From positions 1 through 48,376 of the IMG/VR virus record IMGVR_UViG_3300013131_000068: a stretch of 48,376 bases of DNA. One strand, written 5' to 3'. Shown piece by piece: positions 3,592 to 48,376 of this stretch. This DNA comes from a virus. The notes under the pieces are model-generated. The model ran no database searches. It was not told the origin of the DNA and was given only the letters and a program-made list of their open reading frames with translations. Numbering within the stretch: the first letter of the stretch is position 1; each line of letters opens with the position of its first letter. The position numbers were made by a program, and so were the translations under genes.

Positions 3592-3900
3592 TTACCACTT
3601 TACCTTATCGGCCCAATACGCAGCAGACATTTTGCCCTTTGCAATATTCTTTGCATGACGAGCTTTAAACGACTTACGTTTCGCTTTCATACGAGCTGAC
3701 TCACCTTCTTTTGGTGCACCAGCAGTCTCTGCGCCTTGTTCACCAAAGCGAATTGTCTTTACTTGATCGCCGTCCTTGGCGACCACGATGTGACTCTTTT
3801 CTGGATGAGAAGGTGTTGCCTTTGGCTTATTGAAACCCTGGACACCGGCTCTTACGAGGCGAGGATCTTTCTCTTCTATGAACTCTCTGAAACCCTGCAT
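3592..3900 (-). CDS. Small basic protein with T4 internal-protein-type leader
   Basis: A 102-residue protein. The start at MQGFREFIEE is chosen because GGAGGATAAG precedes it; longer in-frame starts have none. The leader ends in Ile8-Glu9-Glu10, the position and pattern of the cleaved capsid-targeting leader of T4 internal proteins. The body has a folded-looking stretch (SHIVVAKDGDQVKTIRFGEQG). The very basic C-terminus (RMKAKRKSFKARHAKNIAKG, then Ala-Ala-Tyr-Trp-Ala-Asp) is common in marine T4-like phages. A packaged DNA-associated role is inferred from the leader and the basic charge. Confidence 0.72.
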   Translation of the reverse strand: MQGFREFIEEKDPRLVRAGVQGFNKPKATPSHPEKSHIVVAKDGDQVKTIRFGEQGAETAGAPKEGESARMKAKRKSFKARHAKNIAKGKMSAAYWADKVKW

Positions 3901-3901
3901 C

Positions 3902-4492
3902 TTATCCTCCGAACTCGTGGCCAGCAACACGACGCATCTGCTTGTTGAACTCTTGTTGTGATGGCTTTTCTTTGTAAAGCTTGATCGAGATTTCTGGGCG
4001 TTCTTTACCTTTAATACGCCAGTTATAACCCTTCTCTTTATGCTCGGCTGAAGTAGTTTTTACAACACGACGTTTGTAGCCAGCTTCCCATGATTCAGCT
4101 TCGTCAAGATCAACTTCTTCAGTCTTGTTGTACTTCAAAGCATGAGCAGCTTTCACTTCGCGATCAGCTACCTTATCCATTGCTTTACCGGCATACTTCC
4201 AACGTTTATCAGCTTTAGCTTTGTTTTTGTCTTGAAGCGCGGCTGATGCATAGTCTCTTAGCTTTTCAGTTGATACCTCGTCGATCTGCTCGACTTCTTC
4301 TTGAGCGCTTCTAATTGCTTCTTTTGAAGGATACCCTTTATCTCCAGGTTTCGCGGGTGTCTCTCCACGTTTTCTCTTCGCGTGAATGTTAGTCCATAGG
4401 CCGTTGCCTTCTGTAACTTCGGTTGAACACTCATTACAGCAATTAGGGGTACCACAATTTGGATGTTCAAGGAATAGCTTAAATGATTTCAT
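3902..4492 (-). CDS. Modular basic protein with leader-like start and two LDE/IDE sites
   Basis: A 196-residue protein starting MKSFKLFLEH, like the capsid leaders of neighbouring genes but with His instead of Glu at position 10. A cysteine cluster (Cys13, 18, 19, 22 in NCGTPNCCNEC) could bind a metal. A GLWTNIHAKRKRGETP stretch follows. Ile-Asp-Glu72 and Leu-Asp-Glu131 resemble gp21 protease sites and separate three modules; module 2 begins VSTEKLRDYASAALQD, a repeat also found in the gene at 47638-48376. It has a basic C-terminal part. The stop overlaps the ribosome site of the next gene. Function unknown; packaging is inferred. Confidence 0.7.
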   Translation of the reverse strand: MKSFKLFLEHPNCGTPNCCNECSTEVTEGNGLWTNIHAKRKRGETPAKPGDKGYPSKEAIRSAQEEVEQIDEVSTEKLRDYASAALQDKNKAKADKRWKYAGKAMDKVADREVKAAHALKYNKTEEVDLDEAESWEAGYKRRVVKTTSAEHKEKGYNWRIKGKERPEISIKLYKEKPSQQEFNKQMRRVAGHEFGG

Positions 4493-4808: not shown

Positions 4809-5069
4809 TTATTCTGCTGAATCAAAATCTTCTTCGTCGGCCATCTCTGACTCCATATAATCAGCAGCACCTGTGATGTAGTCTGTGGCAAGAACGATGT
4901 TGGCGATCACATGGCCTGGAAGTTCATCATCATCCTCGAGAAGAGTATGCAATCTTTTTGCCGCAGCAATAATCATTCTCAACTGAGACTTGGCCATGCC
5001 GCCTTCTTGGCCGTATTCACCATCGTTCTCGTCTTTGGCTTCAGCCAGCATTTCTTTAAAGCTTTTCAT
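4809..5069 (-). CDS. Acidic protein with perfect capsid-targeting-type leader
   Basis: An 86-residue protein starting MKSFKEMLAEA: Leu8-Ala9-Glu10 followed by Ala11, exactly the spacing of T4 internal-protein leaders and the Leu-x-Glu/Ala site also present in this phage's gp23. The remainder has a conserved-looking EYGQEGGMAKSQLRMI and helical LPGHVIANIVLATDYI, then an acidic tail, a family common in cyanophage-like myoviruses. It lies directly downstream of the 1096-residue polyprotein. Role unknown; predicted to be packaged and processed. Confidence 0.72.
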   Translation of the reverse strand: MKSFKEMLAEAKDENDGEYGQEGGMAKSQLRMIIAAAKRLHTLLEDDDELPGHVIANIVLATDYITGAADYMESEMADEEDFDSAE

Positions 5070-5078
5070 GATTACCTC

Positions 5079-8000
5079 TTAGTACTTAATGACTGGATTC
5101 GGCGTTGAGAAATTCTTCTTACGCATGATGGTCTTTGCTACGATGTCGATCTCATCATTCTTTTCGTCGTACTTGATTACGACTGGCATGTTGAGGTCTG
5201 ACTGAAGATCTTTTACTACAAGTTCAGCACCGGCTTTTCCCTTAAGAGGGTTGCCGTTCTTTGCATAGATCTTTTTGATCAAATCTGCAAGTTCTTTAAG
5301 CTTAATCTTTGGTGAGTTGCGATCATCATTCATACGCTCACCAAAGTGTTTAGTGAACTCAAAGTCAATCTTGAATTTCTCGAACATACGATCGACAAAC
5401 TTTTCGAAGTCTTTCATCTTTGATGCGGTGATTTCAACATCAGCTTCTTCTGACAAAGAACCTTCAACTTCCATCAGAGCTTCAAAGGCCTCGTTGATGC
5501 CATCAGTGATCTTTGGCTTCTTTGGTGTACCCTTTTCGCCGGGAGTTGCGGCTTTATAATTCTGAACAAGAGTATCTGTATTTTCAAATCCAGCGCCATA
5601 TGCTTCATAGTAAGCTCTAAAGTGCTTCATCTTTTTTGCACGCTTAAGAGCTGCATCGATGTGCTTTTCGACATGATCTTCATCGCCATCGTTTGATTCT
5701 GGCGGAATCACTGGAGTAGGAATAGCCTGTTCAAATGCTACACCTTTACGGGTGTGCTTCTTTTCGCCGGAATATTTTTTAAGTAATTTTTTCGTATCAG
5801 CAGGGTCGCCAATTGTCTCGTCTGGGGCCGCGTATTTAAAATCAAACTCATCTACATCACCATCGAGATCTGTATCAATGTGTTTAACATTATCTTTGTA
5901 CTGATGTTTGAATGGAACACCGATACCAAGGTGATGCTTCACCGACATCTTATCTTCTTTTACGGTCTTAGCCGACGCTATCCAATCCTTAGCAGCTGGG
6001 TTTGTTGGAAGAACCTTTGCCCACGTGCTGATCTTACGATACACGCCAGTGACTGCACCTTCGAAGTTAGATCCTTCGGAGTTGTCGATGATATACATGC
6101 GGTTGCCGAAGAAGTTCTGGAACTTACCAAGGTTCTTCTGTACACCGTTCCACATCGTCTCGACTTCTGAGTCTGGAAGCGAGCGAGCGCGCAGACGGTT
6201 ACGAGTCTTTGCGGTGGCGAGGTCGGTGTTAACAAAGATCATTGCAACTTCGTAGCCAAGCTTCTTTAGTTTCTCAGCTTGCTTCTCGATCTTGTCGTAG
6301 TCTTTACCGGTTCCGTCGATTACGAGACCAAGACGACCATTCAGTGCAAGATCTTGCTTCTTCGCCGTAAGAGCTTTTGCTTCACCACGAATCTCTTGAC
6401 CCTTTGCAGAGTAGATGTCTTCTGGGGTTGCCTTAAGTCCTGCCTTTGCAAGTGCTCTTTCGAAGATATCGTCAGAGTTGATCACTTTGAATCCGAGTGC
6501 AGTCAATGCGGTCTTACCTACGATGAACGACTTACCGGATCCTGGGCCACCTGCAAGGAATACTGCCTTGAAGATTGATGGGTCGTTAACACCTTCATCA
6601 AGTAATGTTTCAAACAAATCGTCTGCAGATTCTTTAATGCCGTGCATGTCACGGTACTTACTTGCCAACTGACGACCAGTCAGGCCAATATCGTAAGATT
6701 TTGCGATATCGAAAGCGTATGAGTTTAGGCTTGAACGATTGCCCTTTGATTTGTAGAGTCTATCAAGTGCTTCAAGCGCTCTCTTCATTATCACTTCAGT
6801 TGGTGATGGAAAGTGCTTATCTTCCTTCAGACCTTTTGCAAGGTCTGCGTCTGCAGTTGTGCGAGTCTTACCGCCAGTGATGAACGAATTGACACGTGCA
6901 TATCCCCACTGTTGCGGAGTAGTTCCTGGACGATGACCAGTTCTCCACGCAGCAACACCACGGTCAAATACTTTCTTCAGAGTGCCGTACGAGATGCCAG
7001 ACTTCTCGGCTTTTTTCTTAAGACCTTCCATTGCCTTTGCTTCGTCGAGATTAATTGAGTTATTGATATCTTCTGCAATCATAATCATTTCGAGAAGATC
7101 TGCATCATTCTCTACTTCGATTTCTTCTTGACGAACAATATGGCGGAATGCACGGAAACGGCGATCATATTTAAGCGATCCATCTCCATTATACATCATG
7201 TGATAACGGCGAGTATGGACAGATGGCTTCGTCTTAGCAGTAGCATCTCCAGGTGCAGGCTTATATGCAGCTGGATTATCGTCGTCCATCTTTGCATGTT
7301 TATTGAAGTGAGCTTTACGCTTTGTTGCAGTCGACTTACTTAGACCTGCATAGTAGTCTTCATCAAGGAAAGACTCGAACATCTGATCGATATCCTCTTT
7401 CTGCTGGTGCAGCGAAGCAACTCTTTGTAGTTCAGCCTTGCGTACCTTTGGAAGAAGTCGAGCAGCGATCTTCGCAATTGCGCCTTTTCTCTTCTCGACT
7501 TTTTGATCGATCATGATCTTTTCTGAAGGAGAAAGGTCTGCGTAATTCGCGCCTCGCTCACCTGCTACTCTTTTACGGATAAGTTCAATTGCTTTCTTAC
7601 GTGCTCTCACTGCAAGCTTTTGATTCGAAGCAATCCGATTCTTTAATCTCTCACGAGCCGCTTCCATCTTGCGCTCGTACTTTCTCATTACGAGAGCGCG
7701 CTTTCTACGCTGGGCATATGAGAGAACATATTCGTCAAGCTCAACATCTTCTGATAGTTTCATACCAGCTCTTACCATATCGTAGATGTCTTGAGCATGT
7801 GATTGAAGCTTCTTTGGAAGGCCGGATTTAAACTTTTCTTCTTCACCCTTCGAAGCGGCATCTCTCATCTTCGATGCCGACATGCCTTCAACACCATCAG
7901 CATCAGGATCTCTTTCACCTGCAGAAACAACGGCGATTGATTTCATCGTGTAGTCTTTACCGTTGTACTTGTTAAGAAGAGTTTCAAACTCTTGTACGCG

Positions 8001-8369
8001 ATCTTGTCCAACCACAAGCGTAACATCATCATACTTCGACTGAAGTTGTTTCATGAGGTCAATGATAGTTTTTGCAGGTGAAGACTGAATGATACTGCCA
8101 AATGCTTCTTTGGCAATCATGACTTTATCAGAATATGAAAGTGGATTCTTTTTTGCGTCTTGTGACTGGCTCAAGTAAATTTCGGCTTTGCCACCGATTT
8201 TACGAGCAACGTCTTGAACCTTTTTCACTAGCTTTTCATGACCAATCGTAGGAGGGTTCATTCTTCCCCAAGAGATAACGACTTTTCTCGATGAAGCTTC
8301 CTTAAGAACTGGATTTACTTCAATAACGTTCTTGTTAAGCTTCTCGTCCTTTTTAGACTTCTTTTCCAT
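5079..8369 (-). CDS. 1096-residue modular late protein: nucleotidyltransferase-like, basic, P-loop kinase-like and C-terminal modules
   Basis: Residues about 28-205 look like a nucleotidyltransferase (GRMNPPTIGH with the HxGH-type end, then MSASKMR). Residues 214-337 are extremely Arg/Lys-rich. 338-443 is a second basic module. 444-592 contains a conserved GISYGTLKKVFDRGVAAW segment. About 600-790 is a P-loop kinase-like domain (AGGPGSGKS, Lys613; later LVIDGTG), similar in style to zeta-toxin/polynucleotide kinases. An EF-hand-like DTDLDGDVDEF loop is at 832-842, and the C-terminal module has KHFGERMNDDR. Leu/Ile-x-Glu sites at 24, 213, 337, 443, 592 and 960 fall at the module borders, suggesting gp21 processing. 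The ATG has GGAGAATCTT upstream and follows a late promoter at 8427-8434. Activities are inferred. Confidence 0.85.
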   Translation of the reverse strand: MEKKSKKDEKLNKNVIEVNPVLKEASSRKVVISWGRMNPPTIGHEKLVKKVQDVARKIGGKAEIYLSQSQDAKKNPLSYSDKVMIAKEAFGSIIQSSPAKTIIDLMKQLQSKYDDVTLVVGQDRVQEFETLLNKYNGKDYTMKSIAVVSAGERDPDADGVEGMSASKMRDAASKGEEEKFKSGLPKKLQSHAQDIYDMVRAGMKLSEDVELDEYVLSYAQRRKRALVMRKYERKMEAARERLKNRIASNQKLAVRARKKAIELIRKRVAGERGANYADLSPSEKIMIDQKVEKRKGAIAKIAARLLPKVRKAELQRVASLHQQKEDIDQMFESFLDEDYYAGLSKSTATKRKAHFNKHAKMDDDNPAAYKPAPGDATAKTKPSVHTRRYHMMYNGDGSLKYDRRFRAFRHIVRQEEIEVENDADLLEMIMIAEDINNSINLDEAKAMEGLKKKAEKSGISYGTLKKVFDRGVAAWRTGHRPGTTPQQWGYARVNSFITGGKTRTTADADLAKGLKEDKHFPSPTEVIMKRALEALDRLYKSKGNRSSLNSYAFDIAKSYDIGLTGRQLASKYRDMHGIKESADDLFETLLDEGVNDPSIFKAVFLAGGPGSGKSFIVGKTALTALGFKVINSDDIFERALAKAGLKATPEDIYSAKGQEIRGEAKALTAKKQDLALNGRLGLVIDGTGKDYDKIEKQAEKLKKLGYEVAMIFVNTDLATAKTRNRLRARSLPDSEVETMWNGVQKNLGKFQNFFGNRMYIIDNSEGSNFEGAVTGVYRKISTWAKVLPTNPAAKDWIASAKTVKEDKMSVKHHLGIGVPFKHQYKDNVKHIDTDLDGDVDEFDFKYAAPDETIGDPADTKKLLKKYSGEKKHTRKGVAFEQAIPTPVIPPESNDGDEDHVEKHIDAALKRAKKMKHFRAYYEAYGAGFENTDTLVQNYKAATPGEKGTPKKPKITDGINEAFEALMEVEGSLSEEADVEITASKMKDFEKFVDRMFEKFKIDFEFTKHFGERMNDDRNSPKIKLKELADLIKKIYAKNGNPLKGKAGAELVVKDLQSDLNMPVVIKYDEKNDEIDIVAKTIMRKKNFSTPNPVIKY

Positions 8370-8425: not shown

Positions 8426-9106
8426 CTATTTATAGTTTTGCTGAAATGAATCGATGAATTTGTAGTTTACAGCAGCCGACTTACTCCAAAGCGTCGATTC
8501 ACGAAGCCAACCAATAGCTGGAGTTGGATCCATAATTGCAAGAGGAGTAGCAGTAATTCGTTGATGCCGAATAAAATATGCGTTATCGATACACCCAAGA
8601 ATACCCTTGGTTTCTATTTCTTTCACCATCGCTCTTGCAGTATTTGGAGTCAACGCATATGCATGAGCTCCTTCATGCGCGTCTAATTCTCTTACACCCT
8701 GAGGAGGACCTGCCTTTATGTGGTCATATCTTGAAGTATCTGTTAACTTATAGCCGAGTACTACGATTCTATCATCTGGTATATCAACGCTTGGATTGTG
8801 CAGCATGATTGCATCATGTTCGAGTACCACTGCTGCCTCATTACCGTCTGCGATCTTTTTCCATATTGCTGCATGACCAGCAGAACAACATTGTGGATTA
8901 TTCGGTCTTGTATCGTGTTGAAATAAATGAAGAGTAGCTGTATTGATCTTAGTTTTTGACCAAGCATCATAAACGGACATGTTCGAATAACCTTCGAAAT
9001 ACTCCCAATCTAATCCAACTGCTTCACAGGACTTAGCACAAATCCTTGCGTACTCTCTTGATATTGGATTATCAATCGTTAAAATATAAGCTCTAGTTGG
9101 TTTCAT
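8426..9106 (-). CDS. Glycosyltransferase, family 25-like
   Basis: A 226-residue protein starting MKPTRAYILTID; its ATG overlaps the end of the upstream methyltransferase gene by 14 bases. It has features of GT25 (LPS-type) glycosyltransferases: an N-terminal YILTID strand, the conserved AGHAAIWKKIADG segment, and VVLEHDAIML, where the family usually has a Glu-Asp-Asp metal motif (here Glu-His-Asp). A late YALTPNTARAMV stretch also fits. It probably transfers a sugar to a phage or host glycan; the substrate cannot be told. The last codons, TAT AAA TAG, double as the late promoter of the next gene. The start has a weak ribosome site and is probably translationally coupled. Confidence 0.68.
   Translation of the reverse strand: MKPTRAYILTIDNPISREYARICAKSCEAVGLDWEYFEGYSNMSVYDAWSKTKINTATLHLFQHDTRPNNPQCCSAGHAAIWKKIADGNEAAVVLEHDAIMLHNPSVDIPDDRIVVLGYKLTDTSRYDHIKAGPPQGVRELDAHEGAHAYALTPNTARAMVKEIETKGILGCIDNAYFIRHQRITATPLAIMDPTPAIGWLRESTLWSKSAAVNYKFIDSFQQNYK
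8427..8434 (-). promoter_or_regulatory. Late promoter TATAAATA inside the end of the glycosyltransferase gene
   Basis: Perfect match to the T4 late promoter. It spells Tyr-Lys-stop of the upstream gene and lies about 58 bases before the ATG of the 1096-residue protein gene. Confidence 0.75.
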
Positions 9107-10242: not shown

Positions 10243-11535
10243 TTAAGTAACTTCTTGCCAACTCATTGAACCAAGTACATCATCTCCAGAACCATTTGAA
10301 CAACACGCTAAGGTAAATGTGAAATAAGTCCCAGTAAAACTGTTTCTCTCTAACTGGTACTTAAATAAATCACTTTGTGAAGGAATTGATCCGGTTGATT
10401 GCGAAGTCGTAGCAAAATATCCTGTATCCGTATCTTCACCGCCGCTCATTGCTGTGCCAGTGATATTATATTGAACGTTACTATCAGCTAAATCAACCCA
10501 AGTGCCAGCCGTGATTGTTGCGTCTTTTGTTAATTTATAACGATAGTTGCCGTTAGTCACCCCAAGTAATGAAAAACTTGTAGGTATTACTATACAATCT
10601 GGTGTAGTCGATTTTAATCTAATAGAGATGATTGGATAAAATGTATTTGCGGAAGTTAGATCTCTGGCTGCATTTGTCGCTAAACCTAATGATCTAGATC
10701 TGCCACGTATCTCGTATCCACCTTCTGAAATTACTGTTGAACATACTTGTTTAAGTGTTGAATTTGATGCAGTTGCTCCAATGTTTTCTATCTCAAACCT
10801 TAATGGTAAACACGCAGTGGTAATATATGTCGTCGTGATTATGTTTGAGTGATGAAAACTGTGACAATGTACAAAAGCACCGTTTATAACAAAGCCCATT
10901 CTAACAGTGCCTAAGCCCAACCATTCTAAATCTGTGAACAAAATCTGTGCTTTAGATATATCTAAGGTAAGACCACTTGGTCCAGTACCATCAAGTTTAT
11001 CAATATTCCAATCGGCCTTTTCAGCAATAGTGTTAACGACACTACCGGTCACTGAACTACGTTCTACAAAGCGAATATTCGATCCATTTAATTCAAGGTA
11101 GTGCCCATTGTTGGTGCCATAATATCCAACACGTTGTCTTAAATTGGCCTTTGCCGCATTCATTACAAATGTTGTTAAGATCAGTAAACTTTTACCTGGC
11201 TGATAAGCAAATACTCTTTTTGATTCTCTGTATACATAGTCACCAGATGCTGTACCTATGCTAAGATCTACAAGTCCTTGATCAGAGTTAAACGTAGCTG
11301 TGCTACTGCCGCCAGCGGTTGCTGTTGCAAACTTGCCATTATCTGAATACCTATGAAAGCTATCGAACAATGTAAATGGATTTGAAACTCTTGCTCGGCC
11401 AAACGCATCAACTGCAACACCAGTTGGGTTCGACGAGCCAACTAGATTACCATACTGATCGGCTAACATTACTGTTTCAAACAGCGTCTTATTATCACTG
11501 GTGTACTGATGAGTATTTTTGTTAAACTGTGCCAT
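10243..11535 (-). CDS. Virion structural protein (beta-rich, fiber/tail-associated type)
   Basis: A 430-residue Ser/Thr/Gly/Asn-rich protein. Near its N-terminus it has GVAVDAFGRARVSNPFTLFD followed by SFHRYSDNG, a sequence I associate with a structural protein of cyanophage-like T4-type phages. The rest is predicted beta-rich with repeated strand-turn patterns and no enzyme motif. The ATG overlaps the upstream stop (TAATG), with AAGGA eleven bases before it; an earlier in-frame ATG at 11547 has no room for a ribosome site. It is expressed from the 14476 late promoter together with three putative packaged proteins. The virion role is inferred from composition and family memory. Confidence 0.7.
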   Translation of the reverse strand: MAQFNKNTHQYTSDNKTLFETVMLADQYGNLVGSSNPTGVAVDAFGRARVSNPFTLFDSFHRYSDNGKFATATAGGSSTATFNSDQGLVDLSIGTASGDYVYRESKRVFAYQPGKSLLILTTFVMNAAKANLRQRVGYYGTNNGHYLELNGSNIRFVERSSVTGSVVNTIAEKADWNIDKLDGTGPSGLTLDISKAQILFTDLEWLGLGTVRMGFVINGAFVHCHSFHHSNIITTTYITTACLPLRFEIENIGATASNSTLKQVCSTVISEGGYEIRGRSRSLGLATNAARDLTSANTFYPIISIRLKSTTPDCIVIPTSFSLLGVTNGNYRYKLTKDATITAGTWVDLADSNVQYNITGTAMSGGEDTDTGYFATTSQSTGSIPSQSDLFKYQLERNSFTGTYFTFTLACCSNGSGDDVLGSMSWQEVT

Positions 11536-12764
11536 TAACGCTGCCATCCTTTGATAATTTCAGGCGAAAAGTTTGCACGGCTAAACTGAAGTCGATCGAC
11601 TAGTTTTACTGCATTTTTGCCCATGTGATCGATTACAACAAATCCTTCTTGCTCTGTGACTTTATAGCCATCAGCAGTTTTAAGGAACGTTCCAATCTGT
11701 TTTGCTTTATCTAGTTTTCGTACAATGAGATGCTTGGCATCAACAATGAGATTATACATATCAAAGATTTTCACAATTTCAGTTTTAGGTGTATTTGCGA
11801 AGTACTTCATGACTTCAGCACGTTTCGCTTCACCTGCGGCCTTTGCCTTATCTGTTGCTTTCTTATCGATCTCTTTCTGATAGAAGTCATGCACGTACTT
11901 CGTAAGACCATCGACAAACTGAGTTGTATTACCAATACGTTCGCCGACTCGCACCTTTGAGTTAATATATGCTTTTACTCGAATGAGCAGATCGTCATTG
12001 TCAGAAATACCATCAAGAGAAGATCTCTTCAAGCCAGAAAAGATCTTTCCAGCTTTCGACAAGAGTTCAGTAATTTCTTTCGTTTCAGCGGCGTTGAAGT
12101 TTGCCGAACCAGAAACGTCTTTATAGGATGCATCTACTGACCAGACCGATTTTGTTTTCTTGAGGCCGCTTGCGATCTCCTCTCCAAAACTCGCTGACAT
12201 TGATTCAAAAGAGTTTCCTCTGTATGTAGTGTGCCAGACCACACCGATTCTTGAGGCAAGGATTTCACGAGCAAGTTGGCTGTTCTTCGGTATCGCGTAA
12301 ACAATCGTGTTAGGATGGAAAGTAATATACGGTTCTCCATCAATATCCACTTCTCGTATATCTTCTTTCGAATATAAGAAGTCACCTTGCACCACTCCTG
12401 TAATGCCGAGCTTTGAAAGTTCTTCAAGAGCAACTTTCAGCTTAGCGTTCAAATCACCTGATGTATCTGCATCAATATCAGCTGGTGTCTTATACACCTT
12501 TGGGTCCTTATTGAAGATACCCTTCTTTGCCACAAAGAATTTACCATCGCTTGGATCAATGCCGGCAAAGACTGCAGGAGCACCATCCCACTTGATCGTT
12601 ACGTTAACAGACTTTGCAGAGCTTCCTGCTAGCATGTCACGAAGAGAACGTAGATAGTTAATAGATTGACGAACACCTTCGACGCCAGCATTTAAGATGT
12701 TATCCTCGAGATGCTCCATGTGAGTGTTCTTTGATTCTACGAGAAACCGGTCGAATGATAGCAT
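11535..12764 (-). CDS. Ligase-superfamily (KxDG) nucleotidyltransferase-like protein with capsid-type leader
   Basis: A 409-residue protein. The leader MLSFDRFLVE ends in Leu8-Val9-Glu10, matching T4 internal-protein leaders; this fixes the second of two adjacent ATGs as the start. The body shows the order of covalent nucleotidyltransferase motifs: TIKWDGAPAVF (motif I, Lys-x-Asp-Gly), VVQGDFLYS (motif III-like, Asp replacing Glu), EQEGFVVIDHMG (motif IV) and NAVKLVDR (motif V). It may be an RNA/DNA ligase or another adenylyltransferase; the Asp substitution makes activity uncertain. It is coupled by TGATG to a HAD phosphatase upstream. Its late promoter is at 14476. Confidence 0.75.
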   Translation of the reverse strand: MLSFDRFLVESKNTHMEHLEDNILNAGVEGVRQSINYLRSLRDMLAGSSAKSVNVTIKWDGAPAVFAGIDPSDGKFFVAKKGIFNKDPKVYKTPADIDADTSGDLNAKLKVALEELSKLGITGVVQGDFLYSKEDIREVDIDGEPYITFHPNTIVYAIPKNSQLAREILASRIGVVWHTTYRGNSFESMSASFGEEIASGLKKTKSVWSVDASYKDVSGSANFNAAETKEITELLSKAGKIFSGLKRSSLDGISDNDDLLIRVKAYINSKVRVGERIGNTTQFVDGLTKYVHDFYQKEIDKKATDKAKAAGEAKRAEVMKYFANTPKTEIVKIFDMYNLIVDAKHLIVRKLDKAKQIGTFLKTADGYKVTEQEGFVVIDHMGKNAVKLVDRLQFSRANFSPEIIKGWQR

Positions 12765-13369
12765 CATACTTTCCTTACTGATCCGTCATGGTGAACGTGA
12801 TATGCCTCGAACGATATGTCCGGATACTGCTTTGCAAGAGCCTTAAACATCGTAATGTTTGACATCGCGTCATCAAAGAAGCGTACTCTCTCGTACTCTC
12901 CCTTGCGTAGATATTTATGGAATATGAAGCGTTTGTTCTTTGCGCTCGATCCTAGACCTAAGTTACCAGCTCTTTCAACATACACCTTATCTATATCTAT
13001 TCCATATCTACGGAATGTGTCAAGGAACTTTTTCTTATCGTCGAAGTCCGATCTAGCAGTCACGATAATAACTCTAGACCCAGCATTTACCGCATTGCGT
13101 ATAATTGCTTTTGCCTTTTGAACCATCTTCATGATAGGAACAGAGGTATTCTGGAAGATCTCAGCTGAAGTAAATTCACCGAAGTCGTATGACTCGCCAT
13201 CCTTAAGCTTATATGTATTAAAAGCTTGGTTATCAAGAGACTGAACTACTTTTCCGTCCTTCACTACCTTAACTAAAGCCTTAGTCTGAAAAAGTGTCTC
13301 ATCTATGTCAAAGATCGTTAGACCTTTACCACGAGCTTGTTCTGTTATAAACGACTTAAATGATAGCAT
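12764..13369 (-). CDS. HAD-superfamily phosphatase with capsid-type leader
   Basis: A 201-residue protein. The leader MLSFKSFITE ends in Ile8-Thr9-Glu10, again the spacing of T4 internal-protein leaders, and Ile-Thr-Glu also occurs at the gp21 N-terminal site. HAD motifs follow: IFDIDETLF (motif I, nucleophile and acid/base Asp), IIVTARSDF (motif II), a Lys-rich segment NKRFIFHKYL (motif III), and RFFDDAMSN (motif IV). Such compact HAD proteins include polynucleotide 3'-phosphatases and nucleotidases; the substrate is unknown. It lies between a nuclease-like gene and the ligase-like gene with TAATG and TGATG overlaps. Confidence 0.75.
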   Translation of the reverse strand: MLSFKSFITEQARGKGLTIFDIDETLFQTKALVKVVKDGKVVQSLDNQAFNTYKLKDGESYDFGEFTSAEIFQNTSVPIMKMVQKAKAIIRNAVNAGSRVIIVTARSDFDDKKKFLDTFRRYGIDIDKVYVERAGNLGLGSSAKNKRFIFHKYLRKGEYERVRFFDDAMSNITMFKALAKQYPDISFEAYHVHHDGSVRKV

Positions 13370-14451
13370 TATGATACAACCCTAAATTTAATGTCGTTTG
13401 GATACTCACCACCCTTTGAGTTTCGAATCTCAATAAGATATTTTTGATGAGCGTTTTCGCAATGAATGCGAGTTGATTTCGATGTGATTCCTGGATAGTC
13501 GATTCGTGTCACTTTTATGCTTTGAGATAACTCATCGAGTTTAGCACGGTCGAGCCAGAACACTTTCCAACCACCAGGTTTTTTACGAACATAGAAGTAG
13601 TTCAAGCCCCATACTTGCTCAAAGATCTTTTGAATTTTTGAGGAATCTACCGCAGGGGTCTTGAATTTCTTGCGAGTATCAGGATTGATATTATTTCGGA
13701 TATCAAACCCGCTTTGAACTTTATTCAGATCAACTCCAAATGTACGAAGAAATTCTGCGCCTTCAGAATCTTCGACAAGATCACCCTTTGAATTGAATAA
13801 ACTTTCACCGCCCGGCCACGCACTTACAGTTGCACCGCTTATATCCTTAAGCGAGATGTACCATTTCTTTCCTGTGCTATCAGTAAGAACGATATCGCCA
13901 ATAACAGCATTCAAATCTTCAAGTGGTATACCAGTCTTTCGTGTCGATCCCTTGCGCTGATTTACTTTTACAATTTCCGTATTTGCGAATGGTGGGTAAG
14001 CTTCTTCCATCTGTCTTACGAGCTTAACAAAGCTTTGTTCAGACGCGCCCATGAAAAACATATTGAGGTTTTCAACTGTTTTAGTCTCGAAGTTTTCACC
14101 TTTGTTTGCCCCGCGAGCAATGACAGCATCAACGATTACACCCTTATAGGTAAACGTATAGCTTGGGTATTTTGAACTGTTCGGAGATATATCGTTGTAT
14201 TTAGCGTCGAAGATCTTATTACCGCGTAAACCAGCTTTCAGATGAGCTACAAATGATTCAGATGTATCAACGGTCTTTACGATCAATTGCATTCTGAATT
14301 CGCGCGTAGTTTTATCTTTACCAGCCTTTCCCATCGGCAAAGCTGGCGCCACTTGATAGTTCTTGTTTTTCCCGATATTATTCAAAAGATCGGCGATCTC
14401 TTTATAAACATCAGATTTTGATTTAGCAAAGCTAGAAAAGGGCTTAACCAT
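13369..14451 (-). CDS. Putative PD-(D/E)XK-type nuclease or related protein
   Basis: A 360-residue protein. The segment VIGDIVLTDSTGKKWYISLKD (read from about residue 177) has the Asp ... strand ... Ser-x-Lys pattern of PD-(D/E)XK nucleases, with Glu residues in an earlier GENFETKTVENL helix. It lacks other recognisable motifs. The C-terminal third is basic and aromatic (NYFYVRKKPGGWKVFWLDR). The start MVKPFSSFAKSK only loosely resembles the neighbouring leaders and lacks the Glu10. GAGAGG before the ATG and a perfect TATAAATA at 14476-14483 mark it as first gene of a late unit. The nuclease call is tentative. Confidence 0.55.
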   Translation of the reverse strand: MVKPFSSFAKSKSDVYKEIADLLNNIGKNKNYQVAPALPMGKAGKDKTTREFRMQLIVKTVDTSESFVAHLKAGLRGNKIFDAKYNDISPNSSKYPSYTFTYKGVIVDAVIARGANKGENFETKTVENLNMFFMGASEQSFVKLVRQMEEAYPPFANTEIVKVNQRKGSTRKTGIPLEDLNAVIGDIVLTDSTGKKWYISLKDISGATVSAWPGGESLFNSKGDLVEDSEGAEFLRTFGVDLNKVQSGFDIRNNINPDTRKKFKTPAVDSSKIQKIFEQVWGLNYFYVRKKPGGWKVFWLDRAKLDELSQSIKVTRIDYPGITSKSTRIHCENAHQKYLIEIRNSKGGEYPNDIKFRVVS

Positions 14452-44404: not shown

Positions 44405-45688
44405 TTAGAGGATGTTGGTAACGCGAACGCGACGGTAGTACTTGTTCGAGTTAGCGGTGAGACCGGAGTCACCATCGCCGTCAACCCACTTGGTCGAACC
44501 TTTTGCGAATGGGTTAGCAACCATGCCGTAGCGGGTTTTGAAGCCGATTTTAGCCTGGAAGCTGTTCTCGCCAACTGCACGAACCATCTGTAGTGGGACG
44601 TATGGGCAGTAGAACATACCTGCGTCGAAAGGTGAAGAGCCCTTGTAACCAACGACCATGTAGTTTGCACCAGCATATGGGTCGATGTATACACGGAAGC
44701 GACCATTGAGAACACCTGCGAAGGTATTGCCAGTGTCGTCTACGTTAAGAGCGTTGCTGTTAAGTGCTGGGGTATAGTCAAGGATACCAGCCATCTGAAG
44801 AGCAGATGCAACATCTGACGAGCAGATGATGATGTTACCCTTACCACGACGGGTGTCTTTTGCAAGCTGGTTAGCTTCGCGCTCGATCTGGAACATAAGA
44901 CCCTTGAACTTCTCAACTGACCAGCGGCCATTTGCGTCAACGTCAAGGTCGAAGATACCAGCAGTTGCGGTACCAGTTTGTGCACCGGTGACTGCAGTGT
45001 TGTAGACTGTGCGAACAACTTCACGGTTGATTTCTGCAAGAAGCTCAGCCTGAAGCATATTTGCAAGCTCAGTCTCTGCGTCAAGGCCGTGAATTGCTTT
45101 CAAGTCCTGTGCAAGTTCACTGGTGTATTCTGCTTTAAGCGCACGGCTCTTAGCAGTAACCGAAACCTTCGAAATGTCGAATGACATTTGTGCGAAGTCA
45201 GTGCCAGCGCCGTCGCCAAGAGCTTCAGCAGCTGCGGTTGACATACCAGTACCGGTGTTTGCAGTATCTGCAGTACCAGTTGTACCAGCCATTGTGCCGG
45301 TGCCTGAGAAGTCGGTGTCAGCTTCGCCGTAGAAAGCTTCTGCTGTTGCAGCAGTGGTGTTTGCGTAGTTTGAACGCATTGCGAAGATCAAGCCGGTTGG
45401 GCCAGTCATTGGCTGAACGCCAGCAATATCGTATGCGATCAAGTTAGGCATTGCACGACGAACGAGGCTAATAAGCACTGGGTCGTAGTTTGCAGCAACA
45501 CCTGTGGCATTCACTGGTGCTTCTGTTAGGAAAGAACCGGAACCGTATGTCTGACCTTCCTTGATAGCGACTTCGGTGTTCTCGAGAAGCTGAGCGGTGA
45601 CAGCTTTACGATGCGCATCCTTGATCGATGGAAGAGCAGTGTGCTCAAGCACTGGGCCCCACTTCTTCAATAGTTCTTCGTTTCTCAT
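44405..45688 (-). CDS. 23: Major capsid protein gp23
   Basis: A 427-residue HK97-fold capsid protein (T4 521; marine forms are shorter). Recognisable: LISLVRRAMPNLIAYDIAGV and QPMTGPTGLIFAMRSNYANT near the N-terminus, KSRALKAEYTSELAQDLKAI in the middle, and IDPYAGANYMVVGYKGSSPF with YCPYVPLQMVRAV near the end. The prohead protease site is visible: GSFLTE/APVNA, Leu54-Thr-Glu56 before Ala57 (T4 cuts at Glu65). AGGAG ribosome site, late promoter at 45724-45731, strong terminator after. The codon use is the most biased in the window (abundant GCA/GCT Ala, GGT Gly), as expected for its high expression. Confidence 0.97.
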   Translation of the reverse strand: MRNEELLKKWGPVLEHTALPSIKDAHRKAVTAQLLENTEVAIKEGQTYGSGSFLTEAPVNATGVAANYDPVLISLVRRAMPNLIAYDIAGVQPMTGPTGLIFAMRSNYANTTAATAEAFYGEADTDFSGTGTMAGTTGTADTANTGTGMSTAAAEALGDGAGTDFAQMSFDISKVSVTAKSRALKAEYTSELAQDLKAIHGLDAETELANMLQAELLAEINREVVRTVYNTAVTGAQTGTATAGIFDLDVDANGRWSVEKFKGLMFQIEREANQLAKDTRRGKGNIIICSSDVASALQMAGILDYTPALNSNALNVDDTGNTFAGVLNGRFRVYIDPYAGANYMVVGYKGSSPFDAGMFYCPYVPLQMVRAVGENSFQAKIGFKTRYGMVANPFAKGSTKWVDGDGDSGLTANSNKYYRRVRVTNIL

Positions 45689-45735: not shown

Positions 45736-46653
45736 TTAAGATTTACTAAATTTGTTTAGCGATGCGACGTAAGCCGAAACCGAAGGATCGAGTACAGGAG
45801 TTTTTACTTCTTCTACTTCCTCTTCAAGGACTTCTGCTTGATCTTCTGCACGAACAACTTGCTCGGTGAAGTATGATTCTTTGATGGTTTCAAGCTTCTT
45901 TGCAAAGTCATCAACTGACTCATAAGAAACACCTTCTGCAAGAACCTTAAAGCGCTCTGCATCAGTAGCTACCATGCCTTCAGTGAAGTGTGCAAGTGCT
46001 GCATTCTTCTGAAGCTCTTCTTTTTCTGCACGCTCTGCAAGAAGCTCTTCGAATAGAGCATTGTACTTAGCGTTTGACTGAGCAACTTCTTCTTCCATTG
46101 CAGCAAGTGCTTCAAGCTCTTCGTCTGCAACTTCGATATTATGATCTTCAACAAGTGACTTAAGACCAGCGATGATCGACTCAGCTACTTCAACTTTGTA
46201 GCCAGACTCAAGAGCGACTTCGTTTTCTTTCATCCAGTTCTCAACTACGTAGTCAAGGTATGAATCAACTTTGTCGGTAAGGTCTTCTACAATCGCTTCA
46301 ACCTGCTCAGCAAGATCAGCTTCGAACTGCTCTTCAAGCTCTGCGCGGGCTGCTTCTACTTTCTCGTGAAGTGCTGCTTCAAAAATAGTAGTAGTCTTAG
46401 TCTTGAAGTCTTCGGAAAGATCTGCATCACCAAAGATAGCTTCGATCATTTCATGAAGACCGGCATTGTTGCTACCCTGTGGGGTCTTAACATTCTTTTC
46501 AATGTTGTCTGCTTGTGCAGTCGAGTCAGATTTGAAAGCATCTGCTTTGCGCTTTTTTACAGCGCCGCCAGCTGGTGTAACTGGATCGGCTGACATGGAG
46601 TCTTCGCCAGTTGCTTTTGCTTCTTCTAACCCTTTTTCTAGATTTACATCCAT
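45736..46653 (-). CDS. 22: Prohead core scaffold protein gp22
   Basis: A 305-residue, very acidic, Glu/Ala-rich coiled-coil protein directly before gp23, as T4 gp22 (269). MDVNLEKGLEEAKA carries a Leu9-Glu-Glu11/Ala site near the start, and SVSAYVASLNKFSKS ends the protein like other gp22 C-termini. It forms the inner scaffold and is cut to small peptides by gp21. AAAGGAG ribosome site, late promoter at 46692-46699. Confidence 0.88.
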   Translation of the reverse strand: MDVNLEKGLEEAKATGEDSMSADPVTPAGGAVKKRKADAFKSDSTAQADNIEKNVKTPQGSNNAGLHEMIEAIFGDADLSEDFKTKTTTIFEAALHEKVEAARAELEEQFEADLAEQVEAIVEDLTDKVDSYLDYVVENWMKENEVALESGYKVEVAESIIAGLKSLVEDHNIEVADEELEALAAMEEEVAQSNAKYNALFEELLAERAEKEELQKNAALAHFTEGMVATDAERFKVLAEGVSYESVDDFAKKLETIKESYFTEQVVRAEDQAEVLEEEVEEVKTPVLDPSVSAYVASLNKFSKS

Positions 46654-46719: not shown

Positions 46720-47379
46720 TTACATGCTCTTTAAGAATTTTTCGAACATCTTTAAAGCAGCGGCTTCATCGATCTGCTTCGATTTTTTTACTTCTTCTTC
46801 AATTTGATCAAATGTGTTTGCCACTGTCCATGAAGAAGCCGCAACGTCGTAGATCCATTCTACGCCTTCCATGATACCTTTTACAAAAGCATCTGGAGCT
46901 GAAGGATCTGCGACAATATCACCTGCCGTAGCAAGCATAAAGTCATTTTGTACTTCCATGATGCCCTTTTCATTTGGCTTCACAGATCCCATTCCACGGG
47001 AAGAAATTCCTAATTGCGCACCACTATCGATAAGTCCTTTTACGACATCACCCATAGGGGTTTTAGTAATTTTAGCTCTACCTACAACGTTCGAACCATC
47101 AGCTTTTAATTCTGTGAATAGGTGTGAAACTCTGTCGAGGTTAATAGTTGGTCCTTGTGGGTGACCAAGTTCACCAAAGGCGCGATTCTTCGATACATAG
47201 TTTTCATTGTAGCGATTCATTTCGCGCATTAAAACGTTTGATGGGTAAATACGACCATTACGGTTCTTAATATCACCCTGCATGATGATACCTTCGATGT
47301 AATAGTTCTTTTCACCCTTTTCGGTCGCTTCAGTAATATAATGAACTTCTTCGACAATATCTTTAATGAGTAAGGCCAT
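46720..47379 (-). CDS. 21: Prohead core protease gp21
   Basis: A 219-residue serine protease (T4 212). Catalytic-region landmarks: NRAFGELGHPQGP with His73 and AQLGISSRGMGSV with Ser126/127 and following Arg-Gly; GDIVADPSAPDAFV carries the conserved Asp. The N-terminus EVHYITE/ATEKG shows an Ile15-Thr-Glu17/Ala self-processing site. It cleaves gp23, gp22 and internal proteins after Leu/Ile-x-Glu during head maturation. AAGGAG ribosome site; late promoter in the end of the upstream gene. Confidence 0.95.
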   Translation of the reverse strand: MALLIKDIVEEVHYITEATEKGEKNYYIEGIIMQGDIKNRNGRIYPSNVLMREMNRYNENYVSKNRAFGELGHPQGPTINLDRVSHLFTELKADGSNVVGRAKITKTPMGDVVKGLIDSGAQLGISSRGMGSVKPNEKGIMEVQNDFMLATAGDIVADPSAPDAFVKGIMEGVEWIYDVAASSWTVANTFDQIEEEVKKSKQIDEAAALKMFEKFLKSM

Positions 47380-47396: not shown

Positions 47397-47645
47397 TTAT
47401 TTATAAGCCAATGGAGTAGCCCATACTGTTGTATTAGCCGAGAGTTTATCTGTTCGAAGTTTTTCCATAATCTCAACAAATCCTGCCGGAATTGTAATAG
47501 TACCAATTACTGTATCAGCAGAATCAGAATAAGTAACAAGAGCTTCTGTTGGTGCGTAAACACGCACCAACGTTGAGTTATGAACGGTATTCGCAGTCGA
47601 GATATTTACTTGCGTACCAGTCGGCTTGAGGATAATATCAACCAT
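47397..47645 (-). CDS. Small beta-rich structural protein upstream of gp21
   Basis: An 82-residue protein starting MVDIILKPTGTQVNISTANT, with VIGTITIPAGFVEIMEKLRT and TTVWATPLAYK. Alternating strands and no charge bias; a family seen beside head genes in cyanophage-like myoviruses, function unknown. The ATG overlaps the upstream gene by eight bases. Its final codons TAT AAA TAA are also the gp21 late promoter. Confidence 0.65.
   Translation of the reverse strand: MVDIILKPTGTQVNISTANTVHNSTLVRVYAPTEALVTYSDSADTVIGTITIPAGFVEIMEKLRTDKLSANTTVWATPLAYK
47398..47405 (-). promoter_or_regulatory. Late promoter TATAAATA of gp21, built from Tyr-Lys-stop codons
   Basis: Perfect late consensus coinciding with the last two codons and stop of the 82-residue gene; 19 bases before the gp21 ATG. 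Confidence 0.8.
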
Positions 47646-48376
47646 GCTGCACCGCTTCCTTTGCAAATGCTAGGATTTGATTAAATTCTTTTTTACTAGA
47701 TAACACTTGATCCTGCATTTTGGATTGATTAGCGCTATTAAGAAGTTTAGACAAGTCATTTAGTGCATCAACATCTTCACGACTAAGAGTTACTGAAGAA
47801 CCATCTTTGAGCTTCATCACACCGATCTTGAAAGCTTCATCAAGTTCGACTTCTTCTTTTGTAGCAAGAACCTTTGCTCTACCAGTCTGCTTAGCAAATG
47901 CTAGGTCACGACCAAACTTACGCTTACGATACTTATCAGAACCATCGTCACCTGATGGCTGATCCGCAAAAGCTTTCTGACGGTATGCGTCGAGCTTCTT
48001 ATCGGATACTTCGTCAAGCTCTACAGACTCTCTAGCAGGAACTTTTGCCTTACCACCAATGTCATATGCTTTCTTACCAGCAGTCTCAATACCTTTTTCA
48101 CGAGACTTCATTTTCTTGTACTGAGAAACGTTCTTATCCATATCCTTTGAATTGAACGGTTTCATCACCTCTGATCTACGCTCTTTATTATCAGCAGTAG
48201 CTTTACGGATATATGAACGAGCAAGGTCGCGTGAGATTTCATCGAGACCTTCAGCTTCTTCTTTAGTAAGACGATCAGTTGCCTTTTTTATGTTTCTAAG
48301 TCTGTCCATAGACTTAGAAAATGTCTTAGAACTTCCAGTGTGGCCGTATTCAGCTGCACGACTTGCTGCATCAGAA
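47638..48376 (-). CDS. 5'-truncated modular basic protein with repeated LDE-x-S modules
   Basis: The reading frame is open to the window edge, so the start is outside; at least 245 residues are seen (SDAASRAAEYG ... at the edge). From the first Met (48309) onward, Leu-Asp-Glu sites at 24, 100 and 158 separate modules; two modules begin ISRDLARSYIRKATAD and VSDKKLDAYRQKAFAD, the same repeat as in the gene at 3902-4492. The last module, after EEVELDEAF, is a small alpha/beta domain. Sites fit gp21 processing (Leu-x-Glu). Location next to gp21 suggests a core or internal head protein. Function unknown. Confidence 0.72.
   Translation of the reverse strand, partial: SDAASRAAEYGHTGSSKTFSKSMDRLRNIKKATDRLTKEEAEGLDEISRDLARSYIRKATADNKERRSEVMKPFNSKDMDKNVSQYKKMKSREKGIETAGKKAYDIGGKAKVPARESVELDEVSDKKLDAYRQKAFADQPSGDDGSDKYRKRKFGRDLAFAKQTGRAKVLATKEEVELDEAFKIGVMKLKDGSSVTLSREDVDALNDLSKLLNSANQSKMQDQVLSSKKEFNQILAFAKEAVQHG

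Follow-up and report, generated by a model that had tools for sequence, protein, structure and literature searches.

Organization of the locus and modules of the gene product

The stretch analyzed here (the window) is a 48,376-nucleotide (nt) fragment of a marine T4-like bacterial virus (positions 1 to 48,376 of the IMG/VR record IMGVR_UViG_3300013131_000068). We are concerned with one of its genes, whose 1096-residue product (123 kDa and pI 9.3, as computed from the open reading frame, ORF) had been proposed in a first-pass annotation, made from the letters alone, to be a late polyprotein cut at its domain borders by the prohead protease. The reading frame exists as described there, but it lies on the minus strand and runs from 8369 to 5079. 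The T4-type head genes gp23, gp22 and gp21, identified by Pfam and PHROG searches of the window, are on the same strand (Table 1).

At least two functionally disparate domains are joined in this single polypeptide, in which nucleotidyltransferase (NT), strongly basic (BAS), DUF5824, P-loop kinase (KIN) and C-terminal (CT) modules can be discerned. The nucleotidyltransferase-like, basic, kinase-like and C-terminal modules of the first-pass annotation are borne out by PHROG and Pfam matches, by composition and by the kinase model, and what it had called a conserved GISYGTL module is DUF5824. The NT module matches PHROG 3041/395, with Pfam CTP_transf_like just under the cut-off; since no PDB sequence matches it significantly, it is assigned to an enzyme class on the strength of PHROG, Pfam and motifs. 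KIN matches Pfam Zeta_toxin (E=4e-12) and also AAA_33, and its model resembles the P-loop kinase fold of the polynucleotide kinase (PNK)/zeta group: Foldseek aligned it with the PNKs of C. thermocellum (template-modeling, TM, score 0.67-0.70) and T4 (0.74; structures 4gp6, 4mde and 1ly1), at about 20% sequence identity.

The remaining segments are less compact. The chain opens with a basic leader, whose last residues are NPVLKE, and LKE or IKE is kept at the leader end in the related loci L002-L006 and L009. The YKP/RYH segment is of low complexity (YKPAPGD/RYH). The small helical module H4b is missing cleanly from the near-identical relatives L002 and L003, and the EF-hand (EFH) and IPTPVIPP (IPT) segments stand in reverse order in L009. 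No peptidase domain was found within the protein among the Pfam or PHROG matches, and defence-system models gave no match.

Table 1. Coordinates of the gene, of the modules that it encodes and of associated features of the window (a stroke marks the putative cut; CTS, capsid-targeting sequence; pLDDT, predicted local confidence)
Feature	Coordinates	Strand	Details
Putative polyprotein gene, 1096 residues	5079..8369	-	ATG at 8369, stop 5081-5079
Putative basic N-terminal propeptide, residues 1-24	8298..8369	-	end LKE/A; pLDDT<50 over 1-26
NT module, predicted nucleotidyltransferase, residues 25-213	7731..8297	-	GRMNPPTIGH, MSASKMR; PHROG 3041/395
BAS module, residues 214-337	7359..7730	-	helical, 27% K+R, pI 10.5; AlphaFold2 model, composition
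YKP/RYH segment, residues 338-443	7041..7358	-	mostly low-confidence; alignment, AlphaFold2 model
DUF5824 module, residues 444-516	6822..7040	-	Pfam E=3e-19; site LKE/516 at end
H4b small helical module, residues 517-592	6594..6821	-	sites 580, 587, LDE/592
KIN module, P-loop, PNK/zeta-like, residues 593-805	5955..6593	-	GGPGSGKS
EFH + IPT segments, residues 806-960	5490..5954	-	largely disordered; DTDLDGDVDEFDF motif
Spacer, residues 961-974	5448..5489	-	sites LME/967, LSE/974
CT module, residues 975-1096	5082..5447	-	TKHFGERMNDDRN...KTIMRKKNF; PHROG 14518
T4-type late promoter match	8427..8434	-	TATAAATA, 57 nt 5' of the polyprotein ATG
86-residue gene directly downstream	4809..5069	-	CTS MKSFKEMLAE/A
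Small gene	3592..3900	-	CTS MQGFREFIEE from internal ATG (3900)
DUF6267 gene	11535..12764	-	CTS MLSFDRFLVE/S; first 15 residues pLDDT<50
HAD-phosphatase-like gene	12764..13369	-	CTS MLSFKSFITE/Q
gp23, major capsid protein	44405..45688	-	maturation-type site FLTE/A at residue 56
gp22, scaffold	45736..46653	-	14 L/I-x-E vs 5.7 expected
gp21, prohead protease	46720..47379	-	Peptidase_S77 E=3.6e-34; preceded by TATAAATA at 47398-47405

Placement of the L/I-x-E sites

All six L/I-x-E sites named at the outset are present (24 LKE/A, 213 LDE/Y, 337 LDE/D, 443 LDE/A, 592 LDE/G and 960 INE/A), and the protein contains ten more (207, 427, 433, 516, 580, 587, 637, 967, 974 and 1026). The sequence around site 337 reads EDIDQMFESFLDE/DYYAGLSK, around 592 ESADDLFETLLDE/GVNDPSIFK and around 960 ITDGINE/AFEALMEVEGSLSEEADVEITASK; YVLSYAQR follows site 213. 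Several borders carry more than one site: LSE/207 and LDE/213 close the NT module, sites 427, 433 and LDE/443 lie at the end of the YKP/RYH segment, and tandem sites are found at 580, 587 and 592 and again at 960, 967 and 974. Shuffled sequence would be expected to contain 10.1 sites, and since the observed total of 16 (z=2.1, p=0.03) cannot carry the argument alone, we turned to the placement of the sites and to homologues.

The AlphaFold2 model, built on 32 relatives, has a predicted TM score (pTM) of 0.33, and the modules are therefore not rigidly placed relative to one another. Its stretches with pLDDT<50 are 1-26, 206-216, 334-340, 433-441, 517-520, 583-590, 968-976 and a few others. Although such stretches make up only 27.5% of the protein, 12 of the 16 sites are in them or at most 3 residues away (binomial p=1e-4), which agrees with the expectation that the sites would lie in linkers. 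If only the short internal dips of pLDDT are considered, they accommodate 11 of the 16 sites, compared to 3.3 expected from in-place shuffles, none of 5000 of which reached 11. On the other hand, the control motif L/I-x-D, with aspartate at the position where this residue blocks processing in T4, is found at low-pLDDT stretches in only 2 of 8 cases, and no L/I-x-E site falls in the long disordered region 806-897, the first one in the EFH + IPT stretch being INE/960; thus, disorder as such does not account for the placement.

Conservation of the borders among shuffled relatives

Matches to the polyprotein in the public collection are piecemeal, and no phage there covers 80% of it in one place. 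We compared 492 distinct module-bearing ORFs, gathered from five scans of viral contigs; the conservation pattern of BAS was unusable for scanning the collection, and this module was examined just in those loci that other modules had retrieved. About 340 related loci carry the modules, either reordered or as separate genes, and among the complete ORFs the ten modules are arranged in over 55 different orders, single-module genes included. For instance, the chain of the Sinorhizobium phage phiM12 is NT-BAS-CT, the kinase of the Pelagibacter phage HTVC008M is a separate gene that adjoins an NT-YKP-DUF5824 gene, the Methylophilales phage Melnitz has an NT-DUF5824 chain, BAS has a gene of its own in both Melnitz and C48C1, and both DUF5824 and CT occur as stand-alone genes in relatives. 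The kinase is also found in gp053 of Atu_ph07.

In spite of this reshuffling, and of the unrelated sequences upstream of the modules, L/I-x-E is conserved at the module borders, as the first-pass annotation had anticipated for homologues. With sequences clustered at 70% identity and compared to shuffled borders, the motif was found at 62% of NT borders (29% in shuffles), 82% of BAS borders (48%), 76% of DUF5824 borders (37%), 85% of KIN borders (32%) and 62% of CT borders (29%). The z values of the five modules range from 4.7 to 9.1, random windows of the same proteins contain the motif in 15-24% of cases, and L/I-x-D is enriched at no border. Similarly, 208 of 274 distinct inter-module linkers contain L/I-x-E, compared to 144 expected, while the count for L/I-x-D (103) equals the expectation (103.1). 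At the kinase junction the pairwise identity is 5-12% in most upstream columns, 33% at the L/I position, 76% at the E and 40-66% in most columns of the module; as judged from this alignment, it is the joint itself that is the conserved element. Finally, the position following the putative cut (P1') is A, G or S in 41% of the border sites, as opposed to 5% of those within modules and a background of 21% over all residues.

Capsid-targeting peptides of single-module genes

In T4, gp21 cuts after L/I-x-E, and residues 1-10 of the internal protein IPIII are a sufficient capsid-targeting sequence (CTS), in which positions 4 and 7 are the targeting determinants and positions 8 and 10 are needed for processing (PMC9026906). 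The stand-alone kinase genes begin in a similar manner, with MKSFQQYLDE/GVNDP (L007), MKTFHQIQE/GVYDP (L010), MIPFILKE/GLYDP (HTVC008M) and MKTFAELQE/GVYDP (Melnitz), and they share the joint with ETLLDE/GVNDP in the chain. The start M-x-[FY]-x-[LI]xE, present in 40 of 67 ORFs with an N-terminal kinase and in 3% of shuffled N-termini, has the form of MKTYQEFIAE/A of T4 IPII/IPIII; T4 IPI starts with MKTFKEF and has ITE/A at residue 19. A remote kinase from Cronobacter phage S13 starts with MNFKEFCQLDE/A and differs in the residues that follow, which indicates that the motif is not simply a part of the kinase fold. The leader of the chain itself lacks the form MK[ST]F..[FY][LI]xE, which the stand-alone homologues have. 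Within the window, four more genes start with a CTS, and they are clustered round the polyprotein gene (Table 1). For one of them, called mechanically as 3592-3930 (-), the GTG start is probably wrong, and the ATG at 3900 yields a clean CTS.

These single genes also provide the basis for the most serious alternative, namely that the chain is packaged and injected as an intact polyvalent protein, with only the N-terminal propeptide removed, and that its inner L/I-x-E motifs are relics of the CTSs of fused genes. Polyvalent proteins have been described as a class (PMC5512222), single-module genes with a CTS ending in the same site do exist, their fusion would leave such relics, and 7 of 32 internal kinase borders keep an F at position -6 relative to the site, possibly a CTS remnant. 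However, in the fused versions L/I and E persist while most upstream residues of the CTS are unconserved, the border sites are biased towards A, G or S at P1', extra sites occur in tandem, and L/I-x-D is not enriched. We therefore regard an intact protein as unlikely, though by no means negligible. Another possibility is that the border motifs are kept for the sake of assembly, either as scaffold/core docking peptides that recruit the chain or as favored recombination joints. The T4 targeting peptide indeed binds the core prior to its own cleavage (PMC9026906), but its targeting residues (4 and 7) lie upstream of the processing residues (8 and 10), and it is the latter that the fused versions conserve, which makes this explanation very improbable.

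Promoter, protease and virion data

The TATAAATA core of the T4 late promoter, which matches the window 10 times (1.85 expected), is found upstream of the polyprotein gene, and it also precedes gp21, gp22, gp23 and the cassette composed of the gene 13369-14451, the HAD-phosphatase-like gene and the DUF6267 gene. A candidate for the sigma-like gp55 is present. Late expression of the polyprotein gene, as claimed in the first-pass annotation, is thus suggested by its promoter. The scaffold gp22 is a natural substrate of gp21 in T4, and its counterpart in the window has more than twice the expected number of L/I-x-E motifs, whereas in the replication proteins of the window the count is at expectation. 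Among the relatives, gp21 was detected in all six that exceed 130 kb, and 17 of the 24 contigs searched have it, the seven without a match being mostly fragments below 100 kb.

Mass spectrometry has revealed members of the NT family (the T4-GC190 cytidylyltransferase) in purified virions of both S-SM1 (PMC3037559) and S-CREM2 (PMC10665884). The authors of the S-CREM2 study suggest that the virion carries enzymes of this kind, yet caution that co-purification is possible. The S-CREM2 protein starts with MKNFSSFLTE/A.

It may be argued that the gene encodes a late multidomain enzyme of the cytoplasm that never enters the virion, in which L/I-x-E at the borders is a by-product of acidic, helix-ending linkers. 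The linkers are indeed acidic and rich in E upstream of the sites, and the total number of sites is just mildly above chance. Nonetheless, the number of sites drops steeply in shuffles that keep the composition of the linkers, L/I-x-D is not in excess, the NT relatives occur in virions, the gene is flanked by CTS-bearing genes, and its late promoter is common to the head genes. We find such an enzyme hardly credible.

Proposed processing of the chain

Taken together, the placement of the sites in linkers, the borders of homologues, the single genes with a CTS, the presence of gp21 in the window and the detection of the NT family in virions of relatives support the original proposal, and we consider it likely that the gene encodes a late head-cargo polyprotein processed by gp21 in the prohead at flexible L/I-x-E joints. 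In this scenario, the chain would be made late in infection from the T4-type late promoter and taken into the assembling prohead, where gp21 would cut it C-terminally to L/I-x-E in the flexible joints. The predicted products are a nucleotidyltransferase, a very basic DNA-binding-like piece, the DUF5824 protein, the kinase with its tail, and the C-terminal protein. The released pieces would remain in the head with the DNA and would probably be ejected into the host. The chain would have originated by fusion and reshuffling of single internal-protein genes that bore a CTS.

Several observations weigh against this interpretation. The determinants of gp21 cleavage are few, so that a match to the motif does not prove a cut, and the count of sites over the whole protein (p=0.03) proves little by itself. 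The related sequences are not independent in spite of the clustering at 70% identity. The disordered stretch 806-897 carries no site at all, site 960 is outside the strict pLDDT<50 segments, and sites 637 and 1026 are inside folded modules. There are more border sites than the first-pass annotation named, and site 337 is not conserved, as it reads FNE in L003 and is missing in L005. Furthermore, the KIN/EFH border reads VKE rather than L/I-x-E in this protein, and for that reason the kinase and the EF-hand tail probably stay joined. The same border reads IKE in L032 and L047, both of which encode KIN-EFH as a single gene with a CTS or a CTS-like start.

Neighboring genes and wider leads

The DUF6267 protein, as seen in the window and in 59 aligned sequences, has a near-invariant CTS glutamate and an invariant KWDGAPA...EG[FY]V...K pattern, which recalls covalent nucleotidyltransferases (ligases). 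Several adenylation domains of ligases were near the top of its Foldseek list, none of them significant (best E 0.14), and sequence profiles did not support the ligase assignment, which we keep as a lead only. A single profile, PHROG 455, spans both DUF6267 and the NT module, suggesting that the two are fused in some phages. Neither DUF6267 nor DUF5824 was named in any paper found by our literature search. The HAD-phosphatase-like protein matches a PHROG named polynucleotide kinase, and it is a reasonable guess from sequence and model that it and the kinase help to repair nucleic-acid ends as infection begins; the kinase, the HAD-phosphatase-like protein and DUF6267 might even constitute a packaged nucleic-acid repair set.

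The cassette of a gene of about 350 codons (13369-14451, minus strand) followed by DUF6267 is located upstream of the NTase gene, is syntenic in L017, L019 and L021, and adjoins the chain in phages whose hosts differ widely. By eye only, the proteins of about 350 residues may be PD-(D/E)xK-like. Strings of short basic helical units were also noticed at 47638-48309 (-) and 3902-4492 (-) in the window, and at 9383-11434 in L006 and 9826-11016 in L009. Their units are separated by E-E-[VI]-E-[LI]-[DE]-E ('EEVELDE', 'EEVEQIDEVS'), and they are apparently further chains with gp21 sites; gp160 of S-CREM2, which was detected in virions, has a similar spacing.

Implications and comparison with known systems

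There is perhaps an even chance that the gene exemplifies a widespread, recombining cargo-chain system of marine T4-like phages, in which internal proteins would be mixed either as single CTS-bearing genes or as chains with prohead-protease joints, and one late gene would load equimolar amounts of injected enzymes; the kinase, with the CTS-bearing HAD-phosphatase-like gene and DUF6267 close by, could then belong to a pre-packaged nucleic-acid repair kit active from the very onset of infection. If head cargo is indeed processed by the capsid protease, this would explain many 'hypothetical' and misannotated 'cytidyltransferase' genes of abundant ocean phages, and it would offer a rule for spotting injected proteins in metagenomes from their sequence (L/I-x-E at module borders, CTS-like starts) as well as a natural design for loading several proteins into a T4-type head in a fixed ratio. 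RNA viruses are distinguished by polyproteins that yield, upon cleavage, several mature proteins for delivery.

Elements of this scenario are already known, including the T4 internal proteins with their CTS and gp21 sites, the cutting of the scaffold into multiple products, the processed ejection proteins of phiKZ and SPN3US, and polyvalent proteins; the literature searched describes no chain of different cargo proteins that the capsid protease separates. A close parallel is provided by T4 IPI, IPII, IPIII and Alt, which are likewise late head cargo with gp21-type L/I-x-E sites and a basic character, and whose CTS-like N-termini recur here in the stand-alone versions and in the neighbors. However, the T4 internal proteins are encoded one per gene, with terminal propeptides and a typical CTS, whereas the present gene strings together several enzymatic and basic modules behind the basic leader, and most of the joints carry a site. 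Polyvalent proteins also unite many disparate domains in a single chain that is believed to enter with the DNA, and their authors likened them to polyproteins (Iyer et al. 2017, PMC5512222). Their module set is different, and their release is ascribed to embedded peptidases, seen in many of them, not all, while in our case the cutter would be the separate gp21.

The inner-body/ejection proteins of phiKZ and SPN3US are cut at x-x-E sites by the gp21-related prohead proteases gp175/gp245 (PMC5694885, PMC10052503), but their motif is A/S-x-E, and the processing reported for them removes N-terminal propeptides, in pieces, to leave one mature product per gene. With respect to individual modules, the core cytidylyltransferase of cyanophages (T4-GC190) belongs to the same family as NT, and in S-CREM2 it is a protein of 286 residues and not a chain of modules. 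Likewise, polynucleotide kinases and zeta toxins have the P-loop kinase fold in common with KIN, which in our protein is embedded in a chain.

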